NCBI GenBank assembly: GCA_950295325.1
Contig: OX485805.1
Span: forward strand, 36,133,501 to 36,197,500
Reading direction: 5' to 3'
DNA from: Polytrichum commune
Lineage: Eukaryota > Streptophyta > Polytrichopsida > Polytrichales > Polytrichaceae
DNA: 64,000 bases
The notes beneath the pieces are model-generated. The model was not told where the DNA came from. It was given only the letters and a program-made list of their open reading frames with translations, and did not search any database. Each line of letters starts with the position of its first letter. Positions within the stretch are counted from its first letter, which is position 1. The position numbers and the translations under genes are program-made. Of this stretch, positions 3,296-63,399 are shown one piece after another.

Positions 3296-3899
3296 GAAAG
3301 TTGGAAGGGAGGGTGGCACTCGTGACACGGGCATAGGTCGGTCGGTTTGCTGTCTCTTTGCAGCCGAAGGTGCTCAGGTTGCCTTTGTGTACAAAGGGGG
3401 GCCTGAGGACCAGGACGCAGAAGTCACAAAGAAGGAAGCTGAGAGGATTTCCAAGGGAAAATGCAAGGCCATGGCCATCGCAGTGGACTTGGGGTACGAC
3501 GAGAATTGCAAGAAAATCGTCGATGCAGTTGTGAAGCAGTATGGACGGATCGACATCCTTGTCAACAATGCTTCGGAGCAGTTTTATGCAGAAAGCATCG
3601 AGGACATTAAGCCGGAACAGCTGGAGCGAACGTTTCGCAGCAATATCTTCTCCATGTTTTATCTGACTCGACATGCTGTGAAATACATGAAGGTGAATGC
3701 ATCACATCACCTGACTTTGTCAAACATCCGCATATCAAAGGACAAAATGGTATTTCGAAATCTCATTGAAATATTCCTGCAGCAGATGTCCATGAATCTT
3801 CACCAATTTAAGCATTTTATTCAACTATATTATCTTTAAGCAGTTATACCACCCAAAAGGCTGAATGTTTGCAGCCCCTAAGGTAGCAGGGTGTTAATG

Positions 3900-4450
3900 G
3901 ATACAGTTTCCAACTCGCTCACTTCTCCTAGGACTTGAAAGACGCGATTAGTACAAGGTGGTTACCAAATTCAAACCAAGGCCAAAGCTGCTTGCCTCAT
4001 AACTATCGGAGCTTGTATGAATAACTTATTCATACACCACAGTGAACATTCTCATGCTCATGAAATGGTCATATAGGTCCCCCCCCCCCTTTCCCCATAT
4101 TATGTTGATTATTACATCAAATATGGTATTTAGTGTCACTTACTATTTGGAATTACGCAATGCTATAATTGTTTATTGTACACCTCATTTTTACCAACAA
4201 AGGTCAAATTGGTTGTTTGGACGTTATAGAGAGCTTTACTTGATTAAGAATTTACATTTTAATAAAATTACATAGGAATGTGTAACTCCAAACAATAAGT
4301 GACACTGAACATCATATTTAGTGTAGTTATCATATCATCTTTGAGCACACAGTTAAATCACATGATGCCTTTTTGGTATCTGTTCTTGGAATCACACCTA
4401 ACCATATACCACTCAAATATAGGCGTCCTGATAAGAAAGGAACCGAAGAA
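3900..4450 (+). mobile_element. TTAAGGTAGA-family repeat, interrupted by a TA-site MITE
   Basis: The sequence aligns by eye with the copy at 14.9 kb: GCGATTAGTACAAG, then TCATGCTCATGAAATGG, then a C run (4079-4089). After 4324 it resumes with TTTGAGCACACAG, the HindIII-less continuation of the same repeat, and ends near ATAGGCGTCC. The 209-bp element at 4115-4323 splits it, so the larger repeat is older. It lies in SDR intron 2. Confidence 0.6.
4115..4323. mobile_element. ATTTAGTGTCAC-family MITE (TA target site)
   Basis: The left end CATCAAATATGG...ATTTAGTGTCACTTAC is the imperfect inverse of the right end ending CATATTTAGTG. The dinucleotide TA flanks both sides (4113-4114 and 4324-4325). 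The 209-bp element is non-coding and close to copies at 27.9 and 49.5 kb, sharing an interior ACCAACAAAGGTCAAATTG block with the 27.9-kb copy. It is nested inside another repeat within SDR intron 2. Confidence 0.75.
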
Positions 4451-4990
4451 GGGCTGTCTACTACTTCACTTTACCGGGACTTAACCCGGGCTTGTGTGAT
4501 ATTCTTGCATTTATGGATTCAGCTCTTCATACCATTCAATGGAACGGCGCTTGACTCAGTTCGGTGGTCAATTTGGCGAGTCCCTCGACTAAGATGATGA
4601 TTTTGTTTGGAATTTGTGCTGTAGGAGGGCAGTTCGATCATCAACACAACCTCCATCACTGCATACCAAGGAGCACCCATGCTACTCGACTACTCATCGA
4701 CGAAGGGCGCAATCCTCGCGTTCACCCGAGGCCTTGCCCTGCAACTTGTGAAGCGAGGCATTCGTGTAAACGGTGTGGCCCCCGGGCCCATATGGACGCC
4801 TCTCATTCCCTCCTCGTTCCCGGCCGAGGTGACTGAAGGTGGCAAGTGGGGCACGGAAATGGTCCCCATGAAGAGAGTTGGGCAACCGTTTGAGTGCGGA
4901 ACGGCATATGTTTTTCTAGCCTCCGAGGACGCATCGTACTTCACCGGCCAGGTGCTTCACCCCAACGGCGGTGCTGTCGTGAACGCTTAA

Positions 4991-7340: not shown

Positions 7341-7938
7341 CATTTAGAGTTAGTGGGTTATATGTGGACCTACATGTACATTAAGAACTAAGGGTTATAT
7401 GTGGCATATTATATACTACTAGATAACCATGCTTACAAGACCTACACAGAGCTATGGAGAAATTAGAGCAACCGAAACTGCTTAAGGCATCATGAGACGC
7501 CTATAGTATATGAACATATTCATGTCAATGAGTAAGCAAAAAGAACTTGCTCGTAAAATAATGATGAGCAAGAAAAAGAGGAGCTCTAGATACACATCCA
7601 TTGACAGGCTAGAAGGTGACCAAAAACAAATTTATTGCAAATATTGCAACTCTGGTATCATAACTTACAATGGGTAAGCAAAAAATGAACTATGAGCAGT
7701 AGTAGCTTAATATATACTAGTTGTGTAGATAAATATGCCCCCCTGCTCTAAACTTGACTGTAAGAGCAACCAAGTAAAATCTGGTCACTGCATCTAATGT
7801 GCTAGGTGATTCAGTAATTGATGTACATTATGTTGTTTGCGAGGAAGTCTATCTCCATTTGGATCAGGAAAATTGGTTAAACTTACTCATTTCATCCACA
7901 GTCCTCAGATTTGACCAAACCAGAGAAGCTTTTGTTGC

Positions 7939-10172
7939 TCACTTCTGTGCAAGAGCCTCCAACTCCTTCACATAGCTTGTGAACTTCGCCATGATCAGAG
8001 GAGTGAAGGAATCCACTGAGTTTTGTGTTGGGCTGAACCGGAAGGGCCACACCACTCTTGTCCTCCCAGGACCTTCTCTGATTGCCTACTTTTACATATC
8101 CAAATGAAAATTTATCAATTCCGACTTCAAATAACACAAAAAACTTCCAAAATATTCTAGACGGAACTGCGTGATGGTCCCAGTCAAAAATTGGCAAGTG
8201 ACATGTCACATGTCAGCTAAACCCCTCAGCTTAGAAACTACTCTCTGGAAGACGCTGATCCCAACACTTCAGTGGACCTGATGAGTTACAATTAGACCAC
8301 TATATCAGGTATCAATGATAATATTATCTAACAATTCCAACTTTTGATTTTGGATGTAACCACTCCTAGCTCAAGAATCGCGTATCAACTACACTAAATA
8401 TGATATTTAGTGTCATATGGTATTTAATGTCACTATAATGGTAACTTTGCGGATGACACTTCTTATGAATAAGTGAGGATATATTGTCATGGATGATGGA
8501 TGAGTTCATCCATTGGCCAAAAGTGTACCTTCTCTTGTCCGCAACTTGGTGATGAAATATTGTCATGGGTGATTGAAATTCGGATGAAAAATCACTTGGT
8601 AAGTGACATTAATTGGAACACTGTAAATCTATAATTCCCCACCAAAAAATTACAAGGAATGACAAATAATGTTGGGTTAACATTTAGTGTTGGTGACACT
8701 GTACTGCGGTTTACAATTAGTATTGAGCACAACAATTAGAATTGGTGACACTAAATATCATATTTAGTGTACCGCCCTCAGAATCTATCAATATTCCTCA
8801 AATAAAGTAATACTCATTCTGAAATCTTCCTCGACATTTTTCGTAGTTCCTAAACTGATCAGCCTGGCACAACTGTTATCACTGTGTTGAGTATTGATCA
8901 TAACATCTAAGTCCTTCAGTTAACACACACGCTTGAAGAATGTCACCCGGCACTTCGAATTCCATTACACTGACTGATTTCAGTCACCTCGTACTCTCAC
9001 AAGTCTTTCTGTAGCATTTCCGAAATGCGAGTCTCGTAACCTAGTAATCTCTCTTGTAGGTTCAAGTACTCTATCAATCATCACCTAACTAATGTGACTC
9101 TCAGCTGATCTGACCAAGAACAGCCTTTCCAGCATGCAATCCTGGGGTGCCCTAAATCTCACACACCAAACCAAACCAAACCAAACGTACATACACTTGA
9201 CAATTTTCACACGGCACTTCGAAACGTAGTTGTCCGGCTATTGATCTCTCTTGGTTCAAGTGCTCTATCACCCAATTAATAATACTCTTGGCTGATCTGA
9301 CCAAGAATAACCTTCAACATACAATCCCGGAGTGACATGAATCTCCGTATAAGTTTTGAGTTGCCTGCAGCTAGCTGATCACCTTCTGACACATGCATTC
9401 AATAATCGGAGAGCGACTGAGTTTGACCATACGAATCCCCCCTGTCTGGTCAACGATATGATTTTAGAGATCGGCACAGTTCCTATAATGGTCATAGCCC
9501 TTCCCCTCAGTTAACAAACACCAAACACACACAAACCTGAAGAATCTCACACCGACGGCACTTCGAGTTCCACTACGCTAACTTATCTCAGTCACCTAGT
9601 AATCAACTCTCATCTCTGCAACATGCGATATTTAAGAGACATGTGTTTGACATTATTACTTGGAAGACGGCTTGGTAGCCCGGCTCGATGCCGATGTTGC
9701 CACCGACGAGGTCGTAGGCCATGATACGGCGGTGGTGGTCAATGTAGACGAGCTTCTCAGCAGCCCAGTACTTTCCAGAGCAATCGTGGGGTCGCACCTT
9801 GCGGACGCACCCTGGGACACCGCTCTGGCCCTCCGTGCACTCCACCGCGCAGCGACGCGGGAACTGGAGCCAGTCGGAGCCAATGGCCCACACTTTCTCC
9901 ACGGGCGCTGCGATGATCAGGTCGATGCTGCCGTGCCAATTGGTGCTTCCATCTCCGAATTCCCCTCCGCCTCCGGACGAGAAGTCGCTTGTCATAAGAC
10001 CACCTGCACTTCGGCTGATCAATCTCGAATTACTCGCCACTGCCACAACAGGGTTGCGCATACCGGATCCCACTGTTTGGTGCACCCACAGGCGGAAGAG
10101 CAGGATGGTGGCGATGTGCATTAGGAGCGGCAGGACCAAAGAGCACAAAAGGTGCGAAGATATCACCTGCAT
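7939..10172 (-). CDS. SRPBCC / lachrymatory-factor-synthase-like protein, copy A
   Basis: Two coding exons on the minus strand: 10172-9660 (171 codons) and 8085-7939 (48 codons plus stop). The intron is phase 0 (CAA|GTAATA ... GTAG|GCA), giving about 219 aa. Residues 4-30 form a strongly hydrophobic stretch ending FRLWV, a likely membrane anchor or signal. A Gly/Ser linker (SSGGGGEFGDG) leads into the SRPBCC fold, starting WHGSIDLIIAAPVEKVWAI and continuing EKLVYIDHHRRIMAYDLV. Exon 2 encodes RTRVVWPFRF and the C-terminal helix SFTPLIMAKFTSYVKELEA. Plant members are small helix-grip ligand-binding or cyclase-like proteins of about 170 aa; the N-terminal anchor is extra. The ligand is unknown. 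The frame is intact. Confidence 0.8.
8392..8769. mobile_element. MITE of the TATTTAGTG family, empty site known
   Basis: The 378-bp element starts CACTAAATATGATATTTAG, ends with the inverse, and is flanked by TA at 8390-8391 and 8770-8771. Copy C of the duplication reads ATCAACTACCGCCC at 16577-16590, with one TA and no element, whereas copy A reads ATCAACTA, the element, then TACCGCCC. This proves insertion with TA target duplication after (or polymorphic at) the gene duplication. It lies in the SRPBCC intron and has no coding capacity. Confidence 0.9.
8820..9400. repeat. Internally repeated intron modules of the SRPBCC genes
   Basis: Related modules recur in the copy A intron: CTGATCTGACCAAGAA followed by an AACATGCAATCC-like block near 9106-9145 and again near 9292-9330, each linked to a CGGCACTTCGAA block (8949, 9212, 9556). 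The same modules occur in the copy C intron near 17040 and 17238. They suggest older internal duplication of a roughly 190-bp unit. No function is evident. Confidence 0.5.
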
Positions 10173-10186
10173 GGACGCGGGGGTAC

Positions 10187-10305
10187 ACAGATGAGAATGT
10201 CACCCAGTTTCCAGCCAATTCGGGACAACAGACGCAAACAAAAGGGTACTTTATGTAAATGTTTCTATAGGGTAGGTGATATGTGGGTTCTTAATTCACA
10301 TGATG
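10187..10305. promoter_or_regulatory. Short upstream gap of SRPBCC copy A
   Basis: Only about 120 bases separate homology breakpoint A from the inverted pseudo-exon B, so any promoter of copy A must lie here or inside the inverted repeat. I see no clear TATA box in the minus orientation. The sequence is unrelated to the region upstream of copy C. Confidence 0.35.
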
Positions 10306-10457
10306 GCATTCAGAGAAGATCTTGGGAAGACAAGAGTGGCGTGGCCCTTCCGGTTCAGCCTAACACAAGACTCAGTGGATTCCTTCACTCCTCTCATTAT
10401 GGCGAGGTTCACAGGCTGCGCGAAGGAGCTGATGCACAGGCTCTTGCACAGAAGTGA
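10306..10457 (+). pseudogene. Inverted SRPBCC exon-2 fragment (copy B)
   Basis: Reads RTRVAWPFRFSLTQDSVDSF and then TPLIMARFTGCAKEL, clearly exon 2 of the neighbouring genes but on the opposite strand. The acceptor AG is lost (GATGGCATT instead of CAGGCATT). Five extra bases near 10432 shift the frame so that the usual ELEALAQK end becomes a different tail. There is no exon 1 beside it. It is a dead fragment whose downstream flank continues to about 11.4 kb as the inverse of copy A's 3' flank. Confidence 0.85.
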
Positions 10458-10684
10458 GCAACAGAATCAATATCTTCTATGATTTGGTCAAATCTGAGGA
10501 CCGTGGATGAATTGAGTAAGTTTAACCAATTTTCCTGATCCAAATGGAGATAGACTTCCTCGCAAACAACATACTGTACATGAATTACTGAATCACTTAG
10601 CACATTAGATGCAGTGACCGGTTTTTACTTGGCGGCTCTTACACTCAAGTTCAGAGCAGGAGGGCATTTTTGTCTTCACAACTA

Positions 10685-11022
10685 CACAAAATATGATATT
10701 TAGTGTTTGATTAGATTTAGTGTTTTACCACCCTACTCTGCTCAACACTAATTTTCAATTCTTTGATAATTAGTGTTAGACATAAATGTGTTGCCGCTAC
10801 CTTTCTTGTTGCCACCTCTTTCCTGTGAAACAATCAATCGCCTTCCTTATTACCACCTCTTTCCTACTAAACACTAAATTCGTGCATGTAACTTTCACAT
10901 ATTACCATAGATGATATTTAGTGTTTGAGTTTACATTTAATGTTACTTACTTTCATAGGGTTAGTGATATTTAGTGTAGTGTTCGTATTTAGTGTATCTA
11001 ACACTAAATATCATATTTAGTG
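10685..11022. mobile_element. MITE of the TATTTAGTG family in copy B
   Basis: Starts CACAAAATATGATATTTAG, ends ATCATATTTAGTG, and is flanked by TA at 10683-10684 and 11023-11024. The equivalent place in copy A (inverse strand, 7718-7719) has an uninterrupted ACAACTAGTATATA, so this is a second insertion with TA duplication. The interior is rich in repeated ATTTAGTGT blocks and non-coding. Confidence 0.8.
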
Positions 11023-12848
11023 TAGTATATAGGCTACTACTGCTCATAGTTCGTTTTTTGCTCACTCATTGTAAATTATGATACCAAAGTTGCCAATTTT
11101 GCAGTATATTAGTTTTAGGTCACCTTCTAGCTAGTCAATGGATGTGTATCTAGAGCTCCTCTTTTTCTTGCTCATCAATATTTACTAGCAAGTTCTTTTT
11201 GCTTACTCATGACATGAGTAAGTTCATATACTTAACCTATAGGCCTCTCATGAAGCCTTAAGCATTTTGGGTTGGGTTGCTCTAATTCCTCCACAGTCGT
11301 GTGCAGGTCTTGTAAGCATGGTCATCTAGTAGTGTATAATATGCCACATATAACCCTTGGGTCTTATTTCACATACAAAATCTTAAATTCACATATATGT
11401 GGGCTAAACCCTTGGTTCTTAATTCATTTTGCATTGGCTTTTTTGCCTCTTGTTTTAACAAATGAAAACTCCACCCATTGAAAGAATTTAGCTTGCAATA
11501 CGAGGCTTTCCGATTGTTGGGTACAATTTCATATCAACAAGCAATGCATGTGACATGCACAACATATATATCAACGGTCAGTGCTCATGTGAGATCAGTG
11601 AGTTTTAATCTGACTATGCGCCCCTAATTTGCAATTCTAAACATAAAAATAAAATATTTTTTATATCATTCTATGAGTTTTGTGGATGAAATAGTCACAA
11701 ATATCCCTTAGAATCATGAAGTTTGGATTAATTTACCAAATTTTGAATGAATGCCTATAAATTTGGATGATAATGTGGTACTACTCTCACTGTGTGGGAC
11801 TGGTTTCCATGCAAAGTGGTGTGTGTGGGCAAGTTGATGTATTTAGTCATGGATGGCCCACTCAGGGATGACAGTACATGGAAAGTTTTCAAATTTTAAA
11901 GGGCCCTGAAATAAAGTGACAATATCCTTACCATGCGAGAAGTATCTCATATTTTTCATCAGCATGCTGTCAATTCTTCTTGCTTGCTGTCAGAGCTAAC
12001 GTCCACTCCTCCAAAACAGGTCCACCCCACGAGTGCGAATGATGTATGTTCCTGCAGGATGATAACTTAGGAAATTTTCATGTTCTCCTATCCCTTTGCT
12101 AATGAGAGTGTGGCTGTGGATATTATAAGGTTTGTTTATATAAATAACCTCAATTTATGGACGGCAGTGTCATGACTCAAGGCAGGGGAGAGGAACTGAA
12201 AGACGAGTAAATTTAAAGGCCAGCATGGCCATTGCATGCAACCAAGAATTTTATTGAAGGTTTCTCACAAATTAATGATGCAAGAGAATATGGGCATATA
12301 ATTTTTTATCCTTGTAAACAAAACCTCTGAGAAGAAACATTGAACATGTAATCCTGATCATGCACCTTGCCATTTTAATTGCAGCTATGTTGACAGTCTC
12401 TATGGATTTGAATACCCTACTTGAAATTTTTTCTGAAGAAGTAGAACCTTCACCATGACATTTCATCAGAAGAAATTTTAAAGGGAACCACTCAATTTTT
12501 GTGATTTTTTTATTAATTTATTCCAGGTGCAGGTCAGCAATCCAATATGCAAAGATAGAAGACCCTATGATGGGCTATAGATTTTTAGCCACAACAAACT
12601 TACGTACTTTTACACATTTTTTGAGAGCTGAGCTCGTCACATATTTATATACTCAGCAGAGCAAGCTATGCTATATAAGGGGGCTAGCCAATGAATGCTC
12701 ACATGGCCCACTTTTGACAGAATCCTCCCAGGAATCTTCAAAGAGCTCATGCACAACAAAATTATCTCAGAATCAAAGAAGAAACATACAAACGTGACAG
12801 AATAAAAGCATTTTCTCTACCCGCTTCATGAGCTTTGCAAGAAGAAAT

Positions 12849-15637: not shown

Positions 15638-18381
15638 AACCATGCTTACAAGACCTTCACACAGCTATGGAGGAACTAGAGCAACCCAAAACGCTTAAGG
15701 CTTCATGAGAGGCCTATAGGTGTGGTATATGAACTTACTCATGTCAATGAGTAAGCAAAAAGAACTTGCTCGTCAAATATTGATGAGCAAGAAAAAGAGG
15801 AGCTCTAGATACACATCCATAGACTGGCTAGAAGGTGACCTAAAACTAATTACTGCAAAATTCGCAACTCTGGTATCATAACTTACAATGAGTAAGCAAA
15901 AAACGAACTATGAGCAGTAGACAAAAATGCCCCCACTGCTCTGAACTTGGCTGTAACAGCAGCCAAGTAAAAACCGGTCACTGTATCTAATGTGCTAGGT
16001 GATTCAGAAATTGATGTACAGTATGTTGTTTGTGAGGAAGTCTATCTCCATTTGGATCACGAAAATTAGCTAACCTTACTCAATTCATCCACGGCCCTCA
16101 GATTTGACCAAACCAGAGAAGATATTGATTATGTTGCTCACTTCTGTGCAATAGCCTCCAGCTCCTTCACATAGCCTGTGAACTTCGCCATGATCAGAGG
16201 AGTGAAGGAATCCACTGAGTTTTGTGTTGGGCTGAACCGGAAGGGCCACACCACTCTTGTTCTCCCAGGGCCTTCTCTGAATGCCTGATTTTACATATCA
16301 AAATGAAAATTTATCAATACCGACTTCATGAACATAAAGGACTACCAAAATATTCTAGACGGAAATGCACGATGGTGTCAGTCAAAAATTTGGCAAGTTA
16401 CATCTCAGCTAAACCCCTCAGCTTAGAAACTACTCTTTAGAAATCACTGATCCCAACTCTTCTGTAGACCTGATGAGTAACTATTAGACCACTATATTAG
16501 GTATCAAGGATAATATTATCTAACAATTCCAACTTTTGATTTCGGATGTAACCATCCCTAGCTCAAGAATGTCGTATCAACTACCGCCCTCAGAATCTAT
16601 CAATATTCCTCAAATAAAGTAATACTTATTCTGGAATCTTCCTCGACATTTTTCGTAGTTCCTAAACTGATCAGCGTGGCACAACTGTTATCACTGTGTT
16701 GAGTATTGCTCATAACATCTCAGACTTATATTTCGACTGTGACCACTCTACGCTCAATTATCTCACATCAACTATCGCCCTCAGACAACTACACTCTTCG
16801 AATAACAATAGCACACTAAAGTATTCTTGAATCTTCCCACATAATTTTCACAGTTCCTAAAATGGTCACTCAGTCAACACACACAGTTAAAGAATCTCGC
16901 ACGGCACTTCGAATTCCATTATACTGACTGATGTCAGTCACCTGGTACTCTCATTTCCGAAATGCGAGTCTGGTAACCTAGTACCTCTCTTGAAGGTTCA
17001 AGTACTCTATCAATCATCATCCAACTAATGTAAGTCTCAACTGATCTGACCAAGAATAGCCTTTCCAACATGCAATCCCGGAGTGCCATAAGTCTCACAC
17101 ACCAAACCAAACGTACATACACTTAAAAAAATTCAAACGGCACTTCGAAGTGCAATTGTCCTGTATCCAAAATGCAAGTCCGGCTATTAATCTCTCTTGG
17201 TTCAAATACTCCATCACCCAATTAATAATACCCTCAGCTGATCTGACCAAGAATAACCTTCAACATACAATCCCGGAGTGACATGAATCTCCGTATAGGT
17301 TCTGAGTTGCCTGCAGCTGATCATCTTCTGACAAATTCATTCCACAATCGGAGAGGACTAAGTTTATCCATCATAGTACTCCGTATCTGCAGAAGGCTGC
17401 GATTTGAGAGATTGGCACACAGTTGGAAGCCGGCTAGGCACACTAGGTGATGAGTATAACACTAAATTCCTGAATCAAGCCACATATTTTTCACAGTTCC
17501 TAAGATGATCAGAGTCCTTCAGTCATTACAAACCAAAATCTCCGTGTACCCGAGATTTATGCAGCCGATCATCATTTGACACATGCATTCAACAACCGGA
17601 GAGCGACCAAGTTTGACCATAAGAATCCCCCGTGTCTAGTCAACGATATGATTTTCGAGATTGGCACAGTTCCTATAATGGTCATACCCTTCCCCTCAGT
17701 TAACAAACACCAAACACACACAAACCTGAAGAATCTCACACCGACGGCACTTCGAATTCCACTACGCTAACTTATCTCAGTCACCTGGTAATCAACTCTC
17801 ACCTCTGTAACATGCGATATTTAAGAGACATGTGTTTGACATAATTACTTGGAAGACGGCTTGGTAGCCCGGCTCGATGCCGATGTTGCCACCGACGAGG
17901 TCGTAGGCCATGATATGGCGGTGGTGATCAATGTGGACGAGCTTCTCAGCAGCCCAGTACTTTCCAGAGCAATCGTGGGGTCGCACCTTGCGGACGCACC
18001 CCGGGATACCGCTCTGGCCCTCCGTGCACTCCACCGCGCAGCGACGCGGGAACTGGAGCCAGTCGGAGCCAATGGCCCACACTTTCTCCACGGGCGCTGC
18101 GATGATCAGGTCGATGCTGCCGTGCCAATTGGTGCTTCCGTCTCCGAATTCCCCTCCGCCTCCGGACGAGGAGCTGCTTGTCATAAGACCATCTGCACTT
18201 CGGCTGATCAATCTCGAATTACTCGCCGCTGCCACAACAAGCTTGCGCATACCGGATCCCACTGTTTGATGCACCCACAGGCGGAAGAGCGATCCCAGGG
18301 TGGTGGCGATGTGCACTAGGAGCGGCAGGACCAAAGAGCACAAAAGGTGCGAAGATATCACCTCCATGGACGCGGGGGTAC
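15638..18381. repeat. Segmental duplication, copy C
   Basis: Direct duplicate of about 7,380-10,186, starting near ACTAGATAACCATGCTTACAAG. It lacks both small transposons present in copies A and B but has additional intron sequence at about 16,715-16,860 and 17,330-17,560. Confidence 0.85.
16138..18367 (-). CDS. SRPBCC / lachrymatory-factor-synthase-like protein, copy C
   Basis: Two coding exons: 18367-17849 (173 codons) and 16284-16138 (48 codons plus stop), with a phase-0 intron (CAA|GTAATT ... TCAG|GCA), giving about 221 aa. It has the same architecture as copy A: hydrophobic residues 4-32 ending SLFRLWV, then a Ser/Gly linker, then WHGSIDLIIAAPVEKVWAI, EKLVHIDHHRHIMAYDLV, and a C-terminal SFTPLIMAKFTGYVKELEA. 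Two extra residues (GS) sit in the hydrophobic segment. The frame is open throughout and substitutions relative to A are few, so both copies may be functional. The upstream sequence differs completely from copy A beyond 14 bases, so expression may differ. The ligand or reaction cannot be read from the sequence. Confidence 0.82.
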
Positions 18382-18472
18382 TAAGCTCTAACTTGGCAAA
18401 ACTCTCAAATTCTCAAATTTTTAAAATCTTAAGTCACCTGACAATCTGTTGCCAAGTTCTTAAAGTTTCTCT

Positions 18473-22200: not shown

Positions 22201-22216
22201 TCAATGAGAGATCTTA

Positions 22217-22719
22217 GGGCCACTTCACACACGAGATTGAGAGCCCATGACCATTACACTTCAAGCACTCTCATTGGTGGAAAAGGCGGAGCTGGTCCAA
22301 GGTCACTTCACACTACGCTTGAGGGACAATGGAGTATGTGACTGCAAGATGGATGTGTAGTCTACGTGGATTCCTACATGGCATCGAATGCATCGTGTTT
22401 CATGGTCACTTTGACTATTCTCAAAAACCACCTCTTGGAGGTAGGCCTAACACAAAACCGGGAGACCATAGCACTCCGAACGTTCACAACCGTTGATTTA
22501 TTCTATTTTATCATGTGTGAAGACCCGCATGAATAGAAATTCATTGAAATAGCATTTGGTTGAAGGTCCGGTCTGGTCACATAGACTTCACACTACACTT
22601 GGAAGGTCCGTGACCACAGTACATGATTTTGGAGATGTCTTGGGACAGCCTTTGAACACTTTCTTTTGGGCTCTCACAATTTCATGGTCATGGCTCTTGG
22701 CTCGTGTGTGAAGTGACCC
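22217..22719. mobile_element. PIF/Harbinger-like MITE, TTA target
   Basis: GGGCCACTTCACACACGAG at the left end and its near-perfect inverse CTCGTGTGTGAAGTGACCC at the right end are flanked by TTA (22214-22216 and 22720-22722). The element is 503 bp and has no significant open frame. The copy at 62.84-63.35 kb is homologous in the opposite orientation. The 3-bp TTA duplication is the hallmark of PIF/Harbinger transposition. Confidence 0.85.
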
Positions 22720-22722
22720 TTA

Positions 22723-24835: not shown

Positions 24836-25069
24836 ATACCAGGGCCACACCAAAAACCCCAGCAGCTCCAGTCACCAAAAACATCAGCCCTACGTATTCT
24901 CCGGAAATACAGGGTTGGGATTTCAGTTGGCTGGAGCTACTGGAGTGGCTGGAAGAAGGGAGGTAGCCTGCAACCAGTAGCTCCAGCCAACTTAAATCCC
25001 AGCCCTATATTTCCGGAGAATACATAGGGCTGATGTTTTTGGCTGGGCCGCCCGGTGTGGCCTTGGTAT
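24836..25069. repeat. Long hairpin (about 105-bp arms)
   Basis: ATACCAGGGCCACACC at the left and GGTGTGGCCTTGGTAT at the right are inverse. Inside, CATCAGCCCTACGTATTCTC, CCGGAAATACAGGG and TTGGCTGGAGCTACTGG are mirrored almost perfectly. The loop is only about 25 bases. It is a foldback MITE by structure; a transcript would give a long near-perfect hairpin of the kind that Dicer-like enzymes process. Confidence 0.85.
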
Positions 25070-25838: not shown

Positions 25839-27945
25839 CATGTCAAATCCTAAATTGTGCATGTCAATTGAAATGCATTTTTACTTTATTTTTGGGGTAC
25901 AAGTTGTTGCGTGTCAAATGTGAAAAAAAACTTGCAAAACTTTGATTGGTTGGACACTAGCACAACCAGGCCTGGTCTGATTGGTTGTAGCTGGATTGAG
26001 CCATGAGATATTTTACGTGGGTCCCACCAATACACGTGGCATGACGGCATGCTGGGGGTAGAAGGAAATGGCCATGCACACGTGGGAGGCAACCCTAGAA
26101 TATAGCTGACATGGCATGGCGTTGGGGGTGGGGGTTGGGGGGGGTCTTGGTCAGCTGGAATTAAGGAGCCCTTTTGGACCTCGCCACCTTAACAAATAAT
26201 TCAACAAAATTTAGGAAACGTTTTTGCATGGCGAAGTCGAGTTGTTTAAGTTCATGGCCACGGTCCCTTTTTCTTAGGGGGTTAGTTATGCATGAGTGTT
26301 GTAGTAGTACCTCCTCCATGAAGTCGGTGTAGGGAGGGGGGGGGGGGGGGGGCGCTTTAATATGCTAGTAATTTGGCATCATTTGGGGTTTATCAAAAGG
26401 AATCACACAATTGAATCAATCTCTCTTTAAGACTCAATGATGAGGCCACCGCAAATTTGACTCCATTTATTGTGGCCATGAGCAATTTCATACATACGTT
26501 ACGTGATTCCACTAACGTAGATGGGTCTTAAATGGTTACTTCTCGCGAGTATACCAATTTCTCATAGGCTATGAAATCATAGCCATAATTAGTAAGCAAT
26601 AGTTAGCGATTCCAAATTGAGGCTGTAGTCATTATCCTCGTGGTTTTGGGAGGTCGTATGAGCATTTTTATATATTATCATCATAGTGAAGATTCTGATG
26701 CGTATTGAGTAATCAGGTGGGTTTGAGTTGTGTTTGAACTAAGGTAAGCACGCCTAATTCGGTTACGTACTCATCTTCAACATAATCATGTCTTTGGGTG
26801 GTGTGCAGTCGGTTGTGTGTGTATCTAAGAACATACACCAAAAGCACACGTGTTTAAAGAGTTTGGACTCCCTGACCGTGTTGACTATTCAGCCTATAGT
26901 GGTTATTGTATGTTGGGAACATGGCCTATTCCCTTTTAAACATGTGTTTTTGGTATATGTTCTTGGAGTCACACCTAACCACATACCACTCAAAAAAAAT
27001 TAGGTGTATGATTTTAGATATACACTTGAATGACGCACATCTACCTCACATTGATATTTGCAATTATGTTGACCTTGCCAAGAGGTTGTTTCTTTACATT
27101 GGGTCAAAATAAGATCACAAAATTTTATAGCATTGTTTATTGCATTCTATAGTAGCCATCCCTAAAAGGTTATCATGAATGCGTCATGGTCGAGCGCTAC
27201 CCCTTGCCTAGAAGGCTCCAAGGCCCAACAAAATAAGCTCATTTATGTTGCCACTATGGTAACAAGTATCAAAGAATGTCGATAAATGTGTGCAAGTCTA
27301 CCTAATCACACATATCAAGGCGCACATGACATGTAGTTTCGTGTAATCAACACTATTCATCACCAACAACCACATTAATTGTCTTGCGTCATTGGGTGCC
27401 AACTAATGGACCCGATCACACCAAACTTCCCATCTAGTTCCAGTCGTGAAATTGTTGGGGATTATGTTTAGAAATAGATGTTGGTCCACCACTTTTCACA
27501 TTACTACAGTCGGAGATGCCTATGGATGGTGTCTGAACTAGCCGGTGTGATCAGCCCCTCATGGTGTTGCATGACAAGTCATGAAGATCACTCTAATTTA
27601 CTTGGCACACCAATTTTATAACCAATTCAGATCATATAGGTGTTTATGTGTAGCCATGGCCTTCCTACTACATGGAGGAACATGATTGTCTTTCACACTA
27701 TTAAACTAATTTGTGGTCTCTGGCTCTTTAGTTTGGAGCCCAACCAAATGTATAATGTTCATGAGGTGAAAATGCAATTGGTTTTCTTACAACAAGATTT
27801 TTTCAATCGATCCAACTCCAAGATCAACATCAAAATCCAAACTTAGTTCAATGGGACCCAATTGAGATGAATTAACCACAAGTTGATAGGAAGACAAGTA
27901 GCAAGATATCCATGCCGGCATTCCTTCAAGTGTTGAGTATAGCTA
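25839..27945. other. Spacer with fragments of dispersed repeats
   Basis: No coding exon recognised. A run of 17 G lies at 26336-26352. TTAAGGTAGA-family fragments occupy 26505-26800 (GTAGATGGGTCTTAAATGG onward) and 26930-27040 (CACACCTAACCACATACC). Short open frames at 26788-27112 lie within these fragments. Confidence 0.5.
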
Positions 27946-28166
27946 CACCATTTATGGTATTTAGTATCACTTACTATTTGGAATTATGCAATGTTGTAAC
28001 CATTTACTATAGATCTTAGTTCTTACCAACAAAGGTCAAATTGTTTGTTCGGACATCATAGAACATTAATACATTCTTTACTTTGGTAAAAACTTACACA
28101 TACTGTAAAAAGTTATAGTATTGTGTAGTTCCAAATAGTAAGTGACACTAAATACCAGAAACAGTG
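27946..28166. mobile_element. ATTTAGTGTCAC-family MITE, TA target
   Basis: Left end CACCATTTATGGTATTTAG, continuing CACTTACTATTTGGAATTA; the right end is the inverse, ending CAGAAACAGTG. Arms are about 45 bp. TA flanks both ends (27944-27945 and 28167-28168). The element is 221 bp and non-coding, and the best copy for defining the family. Confidence 0.85.
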
Positions 28167-28169
28167 TAC

Positions 28170-38255: not shown

Positions 38256-41200
38256 TCAAGCACCTCCTACTAATGAGAGTAGGAAAAACTTGTAGTTCCC
38301 AGATGTGTCTCCAGCAATCATACTCTCAAGAGACTTCTTGTATGTAGCTTGAAACTCTTGTTTAATGTAGTACATGTCGATCTCAGCACGAGTCGTAACC
38401 ACCCGTATCAAAGATTCATCATTGGTGCCCAGGCCTTTCATCGAAGTGTAAAGTTCCTGTAGATTATTTGGATGATTAGGTTAGGTCATGAAAATCACAA
38501 GAGCTTCTAGCTTGAAAAACTAACCAAAGAGAACATTCCAATGAGCCTCACAATATGCACAAAAGTTGTCACCCTGTTGACGAGAATTATGACAAGGTAC
38601 ACAATACATAAGAGCTGAGAGATTTGAGTTACCTTGGCGAAGAATCTGGCTGGGTAGCAAACACACTGGACCACAGCTATAAGTGCGTCTTCAAAAAGCC
38701 CAGACGTTTCTCTTCTAACCGCCTGCTAAACAATCAACAATAAGAATCTTAGCAAATATACTTCCCTATAGCAAGAGATTCGAACCAACTAAGTTAATAT
38801 GATCATAGCTTTTGAATTGCACACACTGAAGCCAATTATAATGAAGTCTCAAAGGCTAGAAATCTTCATTATCTCCATTGCAAGAGGACAGACTCTTCTT
38901 GGAACAGAGAGTAGTTTCAATATTCAGAATGGAGATTTCTATTTAGAATAAAATATTATGTTTGCATTATTCACATCATAGTAATATGGTTTCAAACTAA
39001 CCTTTTCAAAACTGTGGCCATAAGTTTGCAGATAGTATTGAAAAGTGCAATTCAAATGGGCAGCACTTCGTGTTGTCAGAATGTGGATGAAGGTGTCCTC
39101 ATTTGTACCCAGGCGTGCCTCACCTGCTCGATATAATGCTTGTGCATCTGCCAATGCCAAGTGGGTATCCACACCGAGTGATTCCGAACGGTTACCCCGT
39201 GCTAGTGCTAACAAGAGCTGCACAGATAAGACAAAGGCATAAGAAATTTCACACACACACCTAGTATAAATTGATGACTTAATCATTGATGCACGAGTCT
39301 TCTGCAGAGTTCCGTGTCCTGATTGTATTTGTATCTCTTAAAGCAATGAACTTCATTTTGCTAAAGAGTATTATATATACAACATTTTTCCAAAAACAAT
39401 TGATGCCTAAAAATGGCCACATACTGATGAACTTTGGATTCTTATTTCTCTCACTGACCTTCCGGTAATCCCCTGATGTGTCACCATCAATGTGGTGCTC
39501 CAATGTTCGCCGATACATGGTATGATAAGCTTGCTTTATTGCATACAATTGTGAAGGGGTTCGGGAACATATGATTCCAATCAATGCGGAATCCCTTGTG
39601 CCTATACCCTGCATTGCCTCATACAGCAACATTGCATCCCGCTGTGCTGCGTCCATCATCCATAGAAGCATGGCTCTCTGCAAATGACACATGACTCAGC
39701 TGGGATATTCAGATTCTAATTTCTGTAGCACTTTTGTTAAAGAATCTGATTCATGTTGGATGAACTCGGAGAAAAAACGGCTCAACAATGTCGCGAGCAT
39801 TAGGTTAAAGTCTCCCAACATTGGTAAATTCGAGAGACTTCAACTAGGGTTGACTGGTCAAAATTCAGCTGCCTATTCTGTAATGAAAAGTTAGACTAAC
39901 AATAAATATACAAATCCTTTTATTTATATGTGTGTATATATGTATATATATACATTTAAGTGAGATGGAAACCCTCAAAAAATCAATCAGGTCCCGGCGA
40001 GATTTGAACTCGAGTTACTGGATTCAGAGTCCAATGTCCTGACCACTAGACTACGGGACCAGTTGATGATTGAGGGCTGTCTGGATAAATTCGAGACAAC
40101 ATTGGTAAATTCGGGAGACTTCAACTAAGGTTGGCTGGTCAAAATTCAGCTGCCTATTCTGTAATGAAAAGTTAGACTAACAATAAATATACAAATCCTT
40201 TTATTTCTATGTGTGTATATATGTATATATATACATTAAAGAGAGACGGAAACCCTCAAAAAGTCAATCAGGTCCCGGCGAGATTTGAACTCGCGTTACT
40301 GGATTCAGAGTCCAATGTCCTGACCACTAGACTACGGGACCAGCTGATGATAGAGGGGGGTCTGGATAAATTCCAGTACCATGACACAGTAGATTGCAAT
40401 ACTAGACTGCATAGTAAATCAAAACACCAATATATTTATTTATTTATTTATTATTTATAAGTTTCAGGAGGAGTATTCATCTGCTATTGTAAACATTGCA
40501 ATCTACTGTGCCATAGTACTGGAATTCATGTGGACAAGATACTACCATGAAGCGGTCCCGTAGTCTAGTGGTCAGGACATTGGACTCTGAATCCAGTAAC
40601 GCGAGTTCAAATCTCGCCGGGACCTGATTGACTTTTTGAGGGTTTCTATTTCACCTTGGCATTTTTTTGGCCTTTGCGGTCGCAACCTCCCTTACATACA
40701 TCCTATGAATATTTAAAGAGTGTATTTGCAGACTCAGGTGCCAACATCATTGGAAAGGTGTAGTTCAATTAAAATATGTGAAGGAGCCAACATGGTGATG
40801 ACCACCTGAACAAATTAACCTACTTTCATCCATGTTTTGGAGGGATTCTCTTATTCATCTAGAATCATACTTATTTTTAGAATATGTTGGCGAAATCATC
40901 CTTCTTCAAGATTTTTTTTCCGAAACTTGGAGATTTCATCTAAGAATATTCTCAGAATCTGTGGTGGAATATTTTTAGATTAATTTTCAAGTAAGTATGT
41001 GGTGAAAGTTCACCATATAGGCTGACAAAATAAGTAAATTTACACTCCCTCCATTCCTCTCTCCTCGTCCCTTCCTTCCTTGTGATTCTCTCCTGCTCTC
41101 TCTTCTTTGCTCCATACCTTACGCATTCCTTGGATTTTAGCAGGTTGGCCTCATATAGATTGTGTTAAAGTAAGCTGCTATTTGATTTCTAAACAAATAT

Positions 41201-43237
41201 AAGACTCCCCACACTGCTCATGACCCTGGAAACACAGTTCTGTTATGAAAGCTACCTCCAATTTGCCATGAAGTTCGTTTTTGAGACGTTTCTGAATGCT
41301 CTCTCCATATTGTCGGTAATAAGCATCGGCTATCGCAAGGCGCTGCGCTTGAGTACGGTGGGCGAGAATTTGAATCACTCTCTTCTCATCACAGCCTAGA
41401 CCTGCCACCCCATCAAGTTCCTGGATTTAGGTCAAACCCAGAATGTACACATTATGTTCAGCGGGCCTAAGGGGCGGTTTACACTATGGACCAAGAGCCA
41501 TAACCATGAAATTCTAAAATCTGTGATTGGAGAGTAAAGTGCTCTTGGTCCCATTTGGCTTTACACTACCTTGAAAAAAGGAGAATGACCACTAACTTTG
41601 AGGTCCCCAAAAACTACTAAAATCTGCCATTTGGATAATGTGCCATGGTCCAACGGGTTTTCCGTTGAGGCGAGGCAAAATGCTCGACTCAACGGAAATC
41701 AAGGGAGCCGTAAGGCTGAAAATCAGCCATTGGCCGAATTTTTTTTTAATATTTTTTTTTCCCGGTTTTTTTTGGGCATGTATTAAAAAAATCAGCACCT
41801 TCACTTTTTGGTGTGTGGTCATTCCTCTTGGTCCACATTCGGTTTACACCTAGTGAAGGGCCCATGAACCATGAAAACTAATATTTTAGTAACTCGGACC
41901 ATGGAAGTCGTCCCATGAAGTCGTCCCACGCAAAATAGGCCTCTTACGTGGGACGACTTCATGGTCCATAGTGTAAACCGCCCCTAATTTGGTTACTCAT
42001 ATTAATCAAACACCTATACTTAGGGTGAGTTTCCATGTAGGCCGCTTCCCCACCATATTCTAGTTTGTATAAGGGCAAACCGGCCCAAATGTAGAGGGAA
42101 TCTAGTGGGGTAGGGTTCGTATGTGCCAACGAACTACTCCCAACTTCTCAAATCCATGCCCACCTACTAACCTCCTCCAGGTTGAAACCTCCTCCTTCTC
42201 AAACTGGGTCTTCAACCCGGAACTTGTAGGTTAAAGAACTTGTAGGTTAAAGATTCTTTAGTGGGCTCAACAGTCATGCAGCCATTGTCCATGGCCCTCG
42301 CAGACCTCCATTTGTGCTTAACTAGACCGACCCACTATTTTCTAGAACCTAGTAGACGAGCGGCCCACATGGATGGTTATGTACGGATCTGGAACAAACA
42401 CCGAAAAGGCATGCGTTCCAAAGATATATTGGACTACGTGCAGAAAGTTTGTAAACTATTCTAAGTTCAGTACTCAACGGAATTGGGGGCACCACCTGTA
42501 TACTAAATGATGATTTAAGTAGTACGAGAATCTTCACTTCAATAATGAAAAGACATTCATATGAGCTTTAAGTTTAATAATCATCTCATACTAATCGCGT
42601 GCTCAATATCCTAGGAGAAGTACACTACTTGGACGAAGTAACCATTTAAAACCCATCTACCTTCAAGGACATATTCTTGACGAAATTGAACGGTTTCTAC
42701 ACTCCATTTTCATTTTACTCAAACCACTGAGAAAGGCCACAACACTCTGTAACTCAATCCTGCTGAATTTCGACGGAGAGATTCTGGACGGAATTTGAAA
42801 GTTTTCTAAACTCCATTATCCTAAGTCTCCAGCTCAGAGCGATAAAACGTTATGTATACATAATTTGAGGGAGACATCACTTACCATCCAGTCTTGGAAA
42901 TCAAGGAAAGGAGTGTGGCAAGATTCTCGTATCCTCTCTGCGTTGCAAAATTCACTTTTGGCACCGGAGATGGTGGAATTTATAAAGAAAATTGGAGGAA
43001 AACTACTTTAAAAGCACAATGCAGGAAGAGAAGCGAAGAGAAGAGAAGGAGAGAGGATTAGATTGGAGAATTTCCTAAAGGTCCTCCTAAGATGGATTGC
43101 AGCGACTTCTATGTCCTTTGAGAATTAAGAGTACTCCTTTGATTGAGGTGGTTTGGAAGTTTACCTTTAAATGCACGATGAAGGCCATTGACGTCCTCTT
43201 GCATATTGAGGTACGGCGGCACAGTCACCGTAGCCAT
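38256..43237 (-). CDS. Annexin (plant type), six coding exons
   Basis: Exons on minus: 43237-43165, 41401-41256, 39677-39459, 39217-39002, 38722-38633 and 38456-38256. All introns are GT-AG and phases agree; 945 nt, 314 aa, the usual plant length. Exon 1 starts MATVTVPPYLNMQEDVNGLH. Four annexin repeats follow: KGLGCDEKRVIQILAHRT, MQGIGTRDSALIGIICSRT, ARLGTNEDTFIHILTTRS and KGLGTNDESLIRVVTTRA. Annexins bind acidic membranes through Ca2+ held by GxGT loops and an acidic residue about 38 positions later. Repeat IV is canonical (GLGTND then GDTSGNYKFFLLSL). Repeat I has Cys in place of Thr (GLGCD) and GKLE where GDFE is usual. The conserved His of ILAHR and the WMMD block are present. Probably a cytosolic, membrane-associating protein. 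The frame is intact. Confidence 0.93.
39990..40060 (-). tRNA. tRNA-Gln (CUG), copy 1, T-stem mismatch
   Basis: 71 nt without CCA, intronless. Acceptor GGTCCCG pairs with CGGGACC; anticodon loop CTCTGAA (anticodon CTG) on a TTGGA/TCCAG stem; T loop TTCAAAT. A TTTTTT terminator follows on the minus strand near 39978. One base differs from copies 2 and 3 (T-stem TCGAG instead of GCGAG), breaking the outermost T-stem pair, so function may be reduced. Confidence 0.9.
40271..40341 (-). tRNA. tRNA-Gln (CUG), copy 2
   Basis: Same 71-nt cloverleaf as copy 1 but with a fully paired T stem (GCGAG/CTCGC). It is followed by TTTTT on the minus strand. It lies in the sense direction of the annexin intron and is the inner arm of an inverted repeat with copy 3. 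Confidence 0.93.
40554..40624 (+). tRNA. tRNA-Gln (CUG), copy 3
   Basis: Identical to copy 2 but on the opposite strand, antisense to the annexin gene. Anticodon loop CTCTGAA; pol III terminator TTTTT at about 40633-40637. It probably arose by inverted duplication of copy 2. Confidence 0.93.
41471..41984. mobile_element. PIF/Harbinger-like MITE, TAA target, annexin intron 1
   Basis: GGGGCGGTTTACACTATGG at the left and the exact inverse CCATAGTGTAAACCGCCCC at the right, flanked by TAA (41468-41470 and 41985-41987). 514 bp, non-coding. An inner hairpin (AAGTCGTCCCACG and CGTGGGACGACTT) sits near the right end. The left end is 67 bases from the exon 2 acceptor, inside the intron. Confidence 0.9.
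42023..42375. mobile_element. GTGAGTTTCCATGTAGGCC-family element, degenerate
   Basis: Left end GGGTGAGTTTCCATGTAGGC with CCACCATATTCTAG; right end TTCTAGAACC...GAGCGGCCCACATGG as a decayed inverse. It lies in annexin intron 1. Related to the better copy at 48021-48425. Confidence 0.6.
42400..42670 (-). mobile_element. TTAAGGTAGA-family fragment in annexin intron 1
   Basis: Shared blocks: GGACTACGTG, CGAGAATCTTCACTTCAATA, ATTCATATGAGCTTT, ATCCTAGGAGAAGT and ACCCATCTACCTT. The orientation is that of the copy at 2873-3258. Confidence 0.6.
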
Positions 43238-60900: not shown

Positions 60901-62060
60901 GGCTCAATTCTAGATCTTGGAGCTCTCCATTGGGTTTGAATCAAACATAATATAAAATTTGTGCCTCATTAGTATTATGGAGATACATATGAAGTGGATC
61001 CTAAAGTGGGTGGTGGTTTTGAGCTAAAACCTATTTCATTTCAAAAGTTGTGTGTATAACTCAAGTATTTGGCAAGATCATATTGTACGTCAGTGCGCCA
61101 CGAATTTTGAAGATTTTTCTTTTCTTTTCTTTAGGTCTACTTCACCCTCACTTTCTGAAAACCGATAATTTTGAAAGTAAATCCTACAAAATTTAGAATT
61201 CTATGGATGTAAATCATGTAGTTGCAATTTTTTTTTATGAAAACATCATAACCCACCTTATTTGTAACTTTATTATGATTTATTTATTTTTTCTTTTCTT
61301 TTCTTTTTGGTATAACTAGGAAATGTGGCTACTTGCGCCTCTAAATGACATGGTAAAACTTTTTTTTACGGCACCATGCTTTGACCTTTCTATTTGATAT
61401 CATTGTCGATTTCTACTAAAACATCAAAATAAAAAATAGGCTTCATTTTTGTGCTTTTGTATGTAAGCATAGACCAATTCAACCGATTCATCCGCGAAGC
61501 ATCCAAAATCTGTGTCGAAGACACTTTGGCATTTAAGAGCTATTATATATACGTGTACAATTTCTCCCTAATGTGAAGCATACATTTTTATTTTTATTTT
61601 TATTTTTTAAAACAGTGCCCGTGGGGCTGTGGCATGTGATCGTTCACCTTACGTGTTTTGTTTGGTAAGAATCAATTGTAGTGGCATTTGGGCTATCCAA
61701 GACTTAAACCCGAAAAGAAGAAACACTAACTTCTTTTCTTTTCAAAAAGAGTATATATATCCTTGGACATGTCCTCAATATTGTAAAGCCCTCCCCTCGG
61801 GGGTTTCCCTTATGAATGTGAGGGCTACAACATGGAAATAGAAGTAGAATCTATTATGACTTATGCAGAGCAATTTCAAGAGATCGTGACACTCTAGTGA
61901 CGACATTCGAATAAGTTACTCATGGAAAGAAAACAACAATGTCCTCGTCATATTCTGTCCTTGTGGAATCTGTACACGAGGAATATGGCACATGATCATC
62001 TTATCTAAGGGCATCAATGAATCCACAAATTTAGGCAAAGTCAACAAGCCATGGTACAAG
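58000..62060. other. Unassigned AT-rich spacer
   Basis: No coding exon, tRNA or clear element found. Many poly-A/T runs. At 59,893-59,935 a CGGACACTTCATTCACGCCG block followed by a (ATC)n run resembles 50,308-50,350 (CAGACAGTCTATTCACTCCG), a minor dispersed repeat. Confidence 0.45.
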
Positions 62061-62063
62061 GCT

Positions 62064-62150
62064 AGGGCGAACCAACTCATACATTGGTTCTTTGGAGGCA
62101 AGGGTTTAGGCATCCAACAAGGAATATGTGTATGGGTTGGTTCGCCCAAA
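62064..62150 (+). repeat. GGGCGAACCAA hairpin element, copy 1
   Basis: GGGCGAACCAACTCATACA at the left and TGTATGGGTTGGTTCGCCC at the right are inverse, spaced by GGCAAGGGTTTAGGCATCC. It is the inverse of the unit at 62,627-62,713. Confidence 0.8.
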
Positions 62151-62626
62151 TCATGGCACATGAGGTGCTTGTGGCCTCTAGCCTTGACAACAAACACGGA
62201 GAACCGACCGCTAAGTCACAGATGAACCAGCGAGCAAGTCCAGTAATTCATGCATATGCATTTGCATCCGCGAACAGAGAATGGCCTCCATCCGGGATGC
62301 TGGTAATTATTATTCTATATTTGAACATAGTACAAATTTAGTCCGAATTTATCTTGAAAATATTGATATTTTCTATATAATCCATTGAATCTACAAATTT
62401 GTAAGTATAAGTCTAAATTTCGTAATGAAAGCATCATTTTACCCATCATTACCCATCCTTTTAGAGGAATCTATGAAATATACGTCAAACTAACAAAACA
62501 AAACAAAATCGGAAGGTGTCATCATGTGGACTTGGAAACACTAGGATCTTGACTAGTTATGCCCAAAATCCTCCCCGGAGATTGAGCCAAACTACCGCCT
62601 TCATGGTGCACCCTACCACAATGGAG

Positions 62627-62713
62627 ATTTGGGCGAACCAATCCATACACTCGCTCCTTGTTGGATGCCTAAATCCTTGCCTCCAAGGAACCAATGTATG
62701 GGTTGGTTCGCCC
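62627..62713 (-). repeat. GGGCGAACCAA hairpin element, copy 2
   Basis: GGGCGAACCAATCCATACA and TGTATGGGTTGGTTCGCCC enclose GGATGCCTAAATCCTTGCC, the reverse complement of the centre of copy 1. Short flanks are also inverted (GGCTA outside, AAATC inside), so the pair spans a larger inverted structure of about 650 bp. Confidence 0.8.
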
Positions 62714-62838
62714 TAGCCCCACAATGGACTTAGTAAATATCTCTCTATTGACTCCATACTGCAAGCTGCAAGGTAAACTATGTCAAGAAATAGTTGTACC
62801 ATTTGAAGCCATCTCCAATCCATAGAGAGGGGGAATGA

Positions 62839-63345
62839 GGGCCACTTCACACAAGAGCCAAAAGCCGTGACCATGAAATTGTGAGAGCCCAAAAGAAAGT
62901 GTCCAAAGGCCGTCCCGACAAACCTCCAAAATCATGTAGTGTGGTCACGGGCCGTCAAGTGTAGTGTGAAGTCATAGGTGACTGGGCCCTCAACCAAATG
63001 CTATTTCAATGAAATTCTATCTATGCGGGTCCTTGCACATGATAAAATAGAATATATCAATGGTTGTGAGCATTTGGAGTCCCTAGCTTGGAATATATCA
63101 ATGGTTTGTGTTAGGCCTACCTTCAAGAGGTGGTTTTTGAAAATAATCCAAGTGATCATGAAACATGATCCATTTGATGCCATGTAGGAGTTCATGTAGA
63201 CTTTACATCCATCTTGCATTCACTTACTCCGTTGGTTCCTCAAGCGTAGTGTGAAGTGAACTTGGACCAGCTCCGCCCTTTCCACCGATGAGAATGCTTG
63301 AAGTGTAATGGTCACAGGCTCTCAATCTCATGTGTGAAGTGACCC
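62839..63345. mobile_element. PIF/Harbinger-like MITE
   Basis: Starts GGGCCACTTCACACAAGAG and ends TCATGTGTGAAGTGACCC; 507 bp. It is the reverse-orientation homologue of the element at 22217-22719, sharing CCAAAAGAAAGTGTCC, ATCATGTAGTGTGGTCACGG, AGTGTAGTGTGAAGTC and ACTTGGACCAGCTCCGCC-type blocks. The target site is TGA against TTA, one mismatch. Confidence 0.8.
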
Positions 63346-63399
63346 TTATTGTAAACGAGTGTACCTCTCATCCATCCAACATTAAAACGCTTGAAGTGT

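Follow-up and report, generated by a model that had tools for sequence, protein, structure and literature searches.

Three tRNA-Gln(CUG) genes, two in tandem and a third inverted, lie within a single intron of an annexin gene in a 64-kb stretch of the Polytrichum commune genome (C3:36133501-36197500 of a 407.8-Mb assembly; hereafter the window, whose own positions are used for features within it). The locus is very probably a small homogeneous tRNA cluster produced by local duplication inside the intron, with standard genes as its members and with a hairpin in the annexin RNA as a by-product.

The annexin intron and its three tRNA genes

The host is an annexin gene on the reverse strand (38256..43237), recognised from Pfam matches of exon ORFs, the joined exons and PDB matches, with an inferred coding sequence of six exons and 314 amino acids. 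Exons 1-6 were placed at 43237-43165, 41401-41256, 39677-39459, 39217-39002, 38722-38633 and 38456-38256, with borders inferred from the sequence, and when joined across GT-AG introns they gave an open 314-aa protein. Pfam searches were carried out with the ORFs of five of the six exons (1-4 and 6); four reached PF00191 above the cut-off, and the exon 1 ORF, of 26 codons, had no Pfam match. The joined protein matched PDB annexins over nearly its full length (E 1e-137 to 3e-64 among the best 60 of 77 distinct sequences), and the named matches, as far as they were recognised, are taken by us to be animal annexins. Intron 2 (39678..41255, reverse strand, 1578 nt, GTAGCT ... TTGCAG) contains all three tRNA genes. 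Two of them are in annexin sense, and the third, on the forward strand, is antisense to its host, as had been claimed for it. On this gene model the cluster would be intronic, nested in a protein-coding gene that is itself intact. A paralogue of the annexin gene on C7 (48-60% identity, depending on the piece compared) contained no tRNA gene detectable with ARAGORN, so annexin genes in this genome do not invariably host tRNA genes. A 20-nt, 80% match between exon 3 (39628-39647) and a part of the intron near the inverted tRNA gene (40492-40511, right arm of the repeat described below) was considered as a possible exon duplication and judged to be chance.

The tRNA genes, hereafter t1, t2 and t3, were reported by both ARAGORN and Rfam at 39989..40060 (reverse strand), 40270..40341 (reverse strand) and 40554..40625 (forward strand), and they were the only tRNA genes that either program reported in the window. 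Their RF00005 scores of 65.7, 71.4 and 71.4 bits, respectively, are all above the cut-off of 29 bits, and all three carry the anticodon CUG (CTG in the DNA). The original prediction of two tandem copies and one inverted copy of tRNA-Gln(CUG) in one intron was thus borne out by the scoring with both programs and by the joining of the annexin exons. The t2 and t3 bodies are identical at 72 of 72 nucleotides, which is beyond chance. Between t1 and t2 the identity is 71/72, and the single change in t1 falls on the first base of the T stem, where the Rfam alignment marks the first pair as broken. An A box at position 8 and a B box at position 51 were found in all three copies. Each copy was also said to have its own Pol III terminator, and a run of five or six T residues does begin at +7 or +8 of all three trailers: a T6 run from +7 for t1 (39977..39982, reverse strand), and T5 runs from +8 for t2 (40258..40262, reverse strand) and for t3 (40633..40637, forward strand), each a likely terminator. 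Only t1 has a CAA motif in the 12 nt upstream of it. Each copy would be a separate Pol III transcription unit, driven by internal A and B boxes and closed by a T run of its own. The product of t2 and t3 would be one and the same standard tRNA, and t1 might be a slightly weaker gene.

Duplication order and the tRNA-Gln family

Repeat comparison resolved the cluster into a direct and an inverted duplication. The tandem units, at 39816..40095 (containing t1) and 40097..40376 (containing t2), both read on the reverse strand, are spaced 281 bp apart and are 95% identical, with 266 of 280 sites the same and 14 different. The inverted repeat consists of two 163-nt arms, t2 with its flanks at 40238..40400 and t3 with its flanks at 40495..40657, which are arranged head-to-head about a 94-nt spacer and are 87% complementary; these arms had been put at 150 bp, and the measured length is slightly greater. 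The t1 and t3 regions can also pair as arms, over 136 nt at 86%. Differences between the t2 and t3 arms are distributed very unevenly, at 22/91 flank sites and at 0/72 sites in the tRNA bodies (Fisher p 8e-7, a test that treats sites as independent here), which indicates that the tRNA bodies have been held constant. Since only 14/280 sites differ between the tandem units, as against 22/91 in the arm flanks, the tandem duplication is apparently the younger of the two. The head-to-head t2/t3 pair would have arisen when a stretch around one tRNA-Gln(CUG) gene, from about -59 to about +32, was duplicated in inverted orientation; the t1/t2 pair would have followed through a 281-bp tandem duplication.

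The upstream flanks of t2 and t3 have not diverged evenly. The non-tRNA block from -59 to -28 (40369-40400 in the left arm and 40495-40526 in the right) is identical at 30 of 32 sites, and is far more alike than the 27 nt adjoining the tRNA genes, where 12 of 27 sites are identical and 15 differ. The cut at -27 was chosen after looking at the alignment, so the fair figure for this contrast is that of a split-point permutation over all splits (p 7.5e-4); with the cut at -37, no difference between the blocks was seen (15/39 vs 15/36, p 0.82). The tandem pair tends in the same direction, with 4/27 sites differing at -27..-1 vs 7/152 in the far 3' flank. Beyond about -59, the in-register alignment of t2 and t3 was no better than that of shuffled sequences, 243 of 500 of which aligned as well. 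An out-of-register upstream match (44 nt, 73%, E 0.002) was set aside as lying in AT-rich spacer. Transcription-linked mutation has been described beside active human tRNA genes (PMC8113476, citing Thornlow 2018), and by analogy the gene-proximal divergence seen here fits such a process. If transcription-linked mutation does account for it, the genes would be active. Alternatively, the -59..-28 block could itself be constrained or converted.

The same tRNA occurs elsewhere in the genome. A search of the assembly with the 420-bp inverted pair gave at least 26 matches, four at the locus and at least 22 elsewhere, and among the 22 listed outside the locus none extends more than 11 bases past the tRNA body. 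Six copies elsewhere, three on C7 and one each on C6, C4 and C2, have the same 72 nt as t2 and t3, which makes t2 and t3 standard members of the family. With BLAST at E 0.01, the 150-bp flanks of these six copies matched neither the annexin locus nor one another, and none of the five loci that contain them has an inverted repeat at the tRNA gene. Identity across the family could be due to gene conversion or to selection, and whichever it is acts on all members, not on this cluster alone. Two further observations were made on these copies. At C7:16818616 and C7:16821944, identical tRNA-Gln(CUG) genes lie on one strand, 3.3 kb apart, with 18 of 24 bases in common just upstream and no longer flank match, perhaps as the result of an old local duplication. 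One of the five loci also has a short palindrome 1.4 kb from the tRNA gene. Searches outside the moss gave no exact match to the 72-nt tRNA in viral contigs and none to its first 41 nt in prokaryotic contigs, both of these collections being uninformative.

These data bear on two other accounts of how the cluster came to be. A tRNA-derived SINE or a foldback (MITE-like) element would make the palindrome a mobile unit, and the arm block at 40369-40400 and 40495-40526 does resemble terminal inverted repeats. Against this, the bodies of t2 and t3 are undamaged and match the six copies elsewhere base for base, and the matches listed outside the locus all end within 11 bases of the tRNA body. Within the window no further copy was found except for AT-repeat matches, and inspection by eye revealed no element body and no clear target-site duplication. 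With intact tRNA bodies, and with no shared body elsewhere in the at least 22 outside matches or in the flanks of the six copies at E 0.01, the SINE was rejected as a candidate, and a mobile origin of either kind is highly improbable. The other account is an assembly artefact, either a false duplication or a foldback chimera, and it has in its favour that the assembly is the sole source of evidence. Chimeric foldbacks have near-identical arms, whereas here 22 of the 91 flank sites distinguish the two arms, and 14 of 280 sites the tandem units. Insofar as the copies have diverged, an artefact consisting of exact copies is unlikely, and we regard an artefact of any sort as exceedingly improbable.

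The predicted hairpin and its possible roles

Local duplication in this orientation leaves a palindrome in the intron RNA, and strong hairpin potential in the annexin pre-mRNA had been suggested. Structure prediction agrees. For the annexin-sense RNA of 40230-40665, the minimum free energy was -276 kcal/mol vs a shuffle mean of -103 (z -32), with none of 100 shuffles as low; when the whole intron was folded, the mean fraction of t2:t3 pairing was 1.0, t2 and t3 being fully paired, and that of t1 self-pairing was 0.63. On these figures a highly stable hairpin is expected in the annexin-sense intron RNA. In our preferred reading, a local duplication of standard tRNA genes, this hairpin would be a by-product and the intron would presumably be spliced normally.

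The duplex might instead be a working hairpin, cut into small RNAs by a Dicer-like enzyme or altering annexin splicing. The stability of the fold and the complete t2:t3 pairing in the whole intron would suit such a role, although a fold of this kind follows from any inverted duplication. Both of the differences in the 32-nt non-tRNA block, which is otherwise identical, leave G-U pairs on the annexin-sense strand; two out of two would arise by chance about one time in four, and over the whole arms there is no clear lean, with eight G-U-leaving differences on the annexin-sense strand vs five on the other. Rfam matched no miRNA family at the gathering score. The sole miRNA match across both arms was to MIR841, at 20.4 bits vs 200 and on the opposite strand, and such weak matches, far below the gathering score, were not taken as evidence of a miRNA family. 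Foldbacks are, moreover, not rare in the window. Among the longest 25 of the 30 inverted pairs found there, two MITE-like pairs have short spacers, at 24875-25042 (69 nt, 94%, 30-nt spacer) and 27944-28168 (86 nt, 78%, 53-nt spacer), and two more have longer ones, at 62060-62718 and 3126-4002 (473 and 687 nt). A working hairpin is accordingly judged to be very unlikely. There is only a very slight chance that the hairpin feeds a small-RNA pathway in which small RNAs cut from its 32-nt non-tRNA arms and from double-stranded tRNA-Gln would tie annexin transcription to tRNA-Gln supply or to the silencing of tRNA-Gln genes. The nesting raises a further idea, that annexin transcription by Pol II and transcription of the nested tRNA genes by Pol III regulate each other, so that the output of t1 and t2 would differ from that of t3. 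PMC4999229 reports for C. elegans that an intronic tRNA is affected by the promoter of its host and that Pol III occupancy of intronic tRNA genes is lower on the same strand as the host than on the opposite one; it also gives an intronic share of tRNA genes not different from chance. In the moss, ARAGORN detected no tRNA gene in the annexin paralogue on C7. Mutual regulation of this kind is unlikely, and nothing was found that favours either polymerase interference or an effect on annexin expression, both of which had been proposed.

The window contains other repeated sequence. Longer dispersed inverted repeats (up to 234 nt, 90%), perhaps transposon copies, lie at 7374-11374 and 15682-16285 and at 22216-22720 and 62838-63346. 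Two very similar ORFs lie about 8 kb apart, at 9603-10199 and 17792-18412 (reverse strand). The ORF at 17792-18412 had a sub-cut-off Pfam match to Polyketide_cyc2 and that at 9603-10199 had none at E 0.001; both look Bet v 1-like.

Other tRNA clusters in the genome and in print

A genome-wide tRNA search was used for comparison, in which 63 of 24132 candidates were scored, so that all counts from it are lower bounds. Among these 63, seven neighbouring pairs lie less than 1 kb apart, six of them parallel and one, t2/t3, antiparallel; a close head-to-head pair is therefore unusual in this sample of 63. ARAGORN added tRNA genes beyond the 63 at C7:29996500-30003500 and C5:37985500-37989500. In the first of these regions, two tandem Val(CAC)/Arg(CCT) units and one inverted unit occupy C7:29997545-30001000 (1045-1749 and 4350-4502 within the region, with the inverted unit 2.6-2.9 kb off), and the longest arms are 293 nt and 85% complementary. 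Like the annexin-intron cluster, it combines two same-strand units with a third on the opposite strand, in the same order and direction. Unlike it, each unit holds two tRNA genes, and the arms are about 2.9 kb apart (vs 94 nt in the annexin intron). So few bases separate the two genes of each Val/Arg unit that they may be transcribed jointly. In the second region, at 858-2526, three tandem Gly(TCC)/Asn(GTT) units were observed with a spacing of about 492 bp. Besides the Val/Arg cluster, three tRNA clusters were checked; two, including the Gly/Asn one, are tandem only and one repeats only the tRNA body, and none of these three has an inverted repeat of at least 50 nt. Taken together, the C7 Val/Arg and annexin-intron clusters show that inverted duplication of tRNA units has occurred at least twice in this genome. 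With two tandem units and one inverted unit recurring in this way, the arrangement is less special than first thought.

The cluster is of a kind already known: the literature describes tRNA clusters, head-to-head pairs and tRNA genes in introns. In PMC11700998 a plant tDNA cluster is defined as at least three tDNAs within 1 kb, and 324, 103 and 2 clusters of at least three tDNAs per kb are given for eudicots, monocots and ANA genomes, respectively. In PMC12652284, 578 identical pairs less than 1 kb apart are counted among 28,262 tRNA genes of 50 plants. The annexin-intron cluster falls within the plant definition, with three tRNA genes of the same anticodon in 637 bp (39989-40625) arising by local duplication. 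It differs in that one member is inverted; strand is apparently untreated in these two sources, to judge from the absence of the words "inverted" and "orientation" from the main text of PMC11700998 and of "inverted", "opposite" and "strand" from that of PMC12652284. A head-to-head homogeneous class, comprising divergent adjacent tDNAs of the same isoacceptor less than 1 kb apart, is described in PMC2888827, and t2 and t3, which are divergent, share an anticodon and are 212 nt apart, belong to it as described there. According to the same source most tRNA pairs are parallel, as are nearly all of those in Arabidopsis and Selaginella, which makes an antiparallel pair a minority form in those species; antiparallel tRNA pairs are also suggested there as a source of small RNA. 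In C. elegans, 44% of 609 tRNA genes are intronic, as chance predicts, and PMC4999229 nonetheless argues for the conservation of specific tRNA-host pairings. Those genes, as described in that source, resemble the present ones in that introns of protein-coding genes harbour them on either strand, whereas here a whole cluster with an inverted repeat is nested, and in a land plant. Among the papers listed in literature searches for plant intronic tRNA genes, none was judged to address the point, though cases may still be in print. The annexin-intron cluster is, then, an ordinary local tRNA duplication in an intron, and its inverted member is the one less common feature.

For the tRNA-Gln family of this moss, the locus provides a clean example of tRNA gene multiplication, in which the relative ages of an inverted and a tandem duplication can be told. 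Fixed tRNA bodies stand beside drifting flanks within the cluster, and two of its copies have identical counterparts elsewhere in the genome. Having copies in both orientations within a single intron, the locus would also offer a handy natural test of the effect of host transcription on nested tRNA genes.
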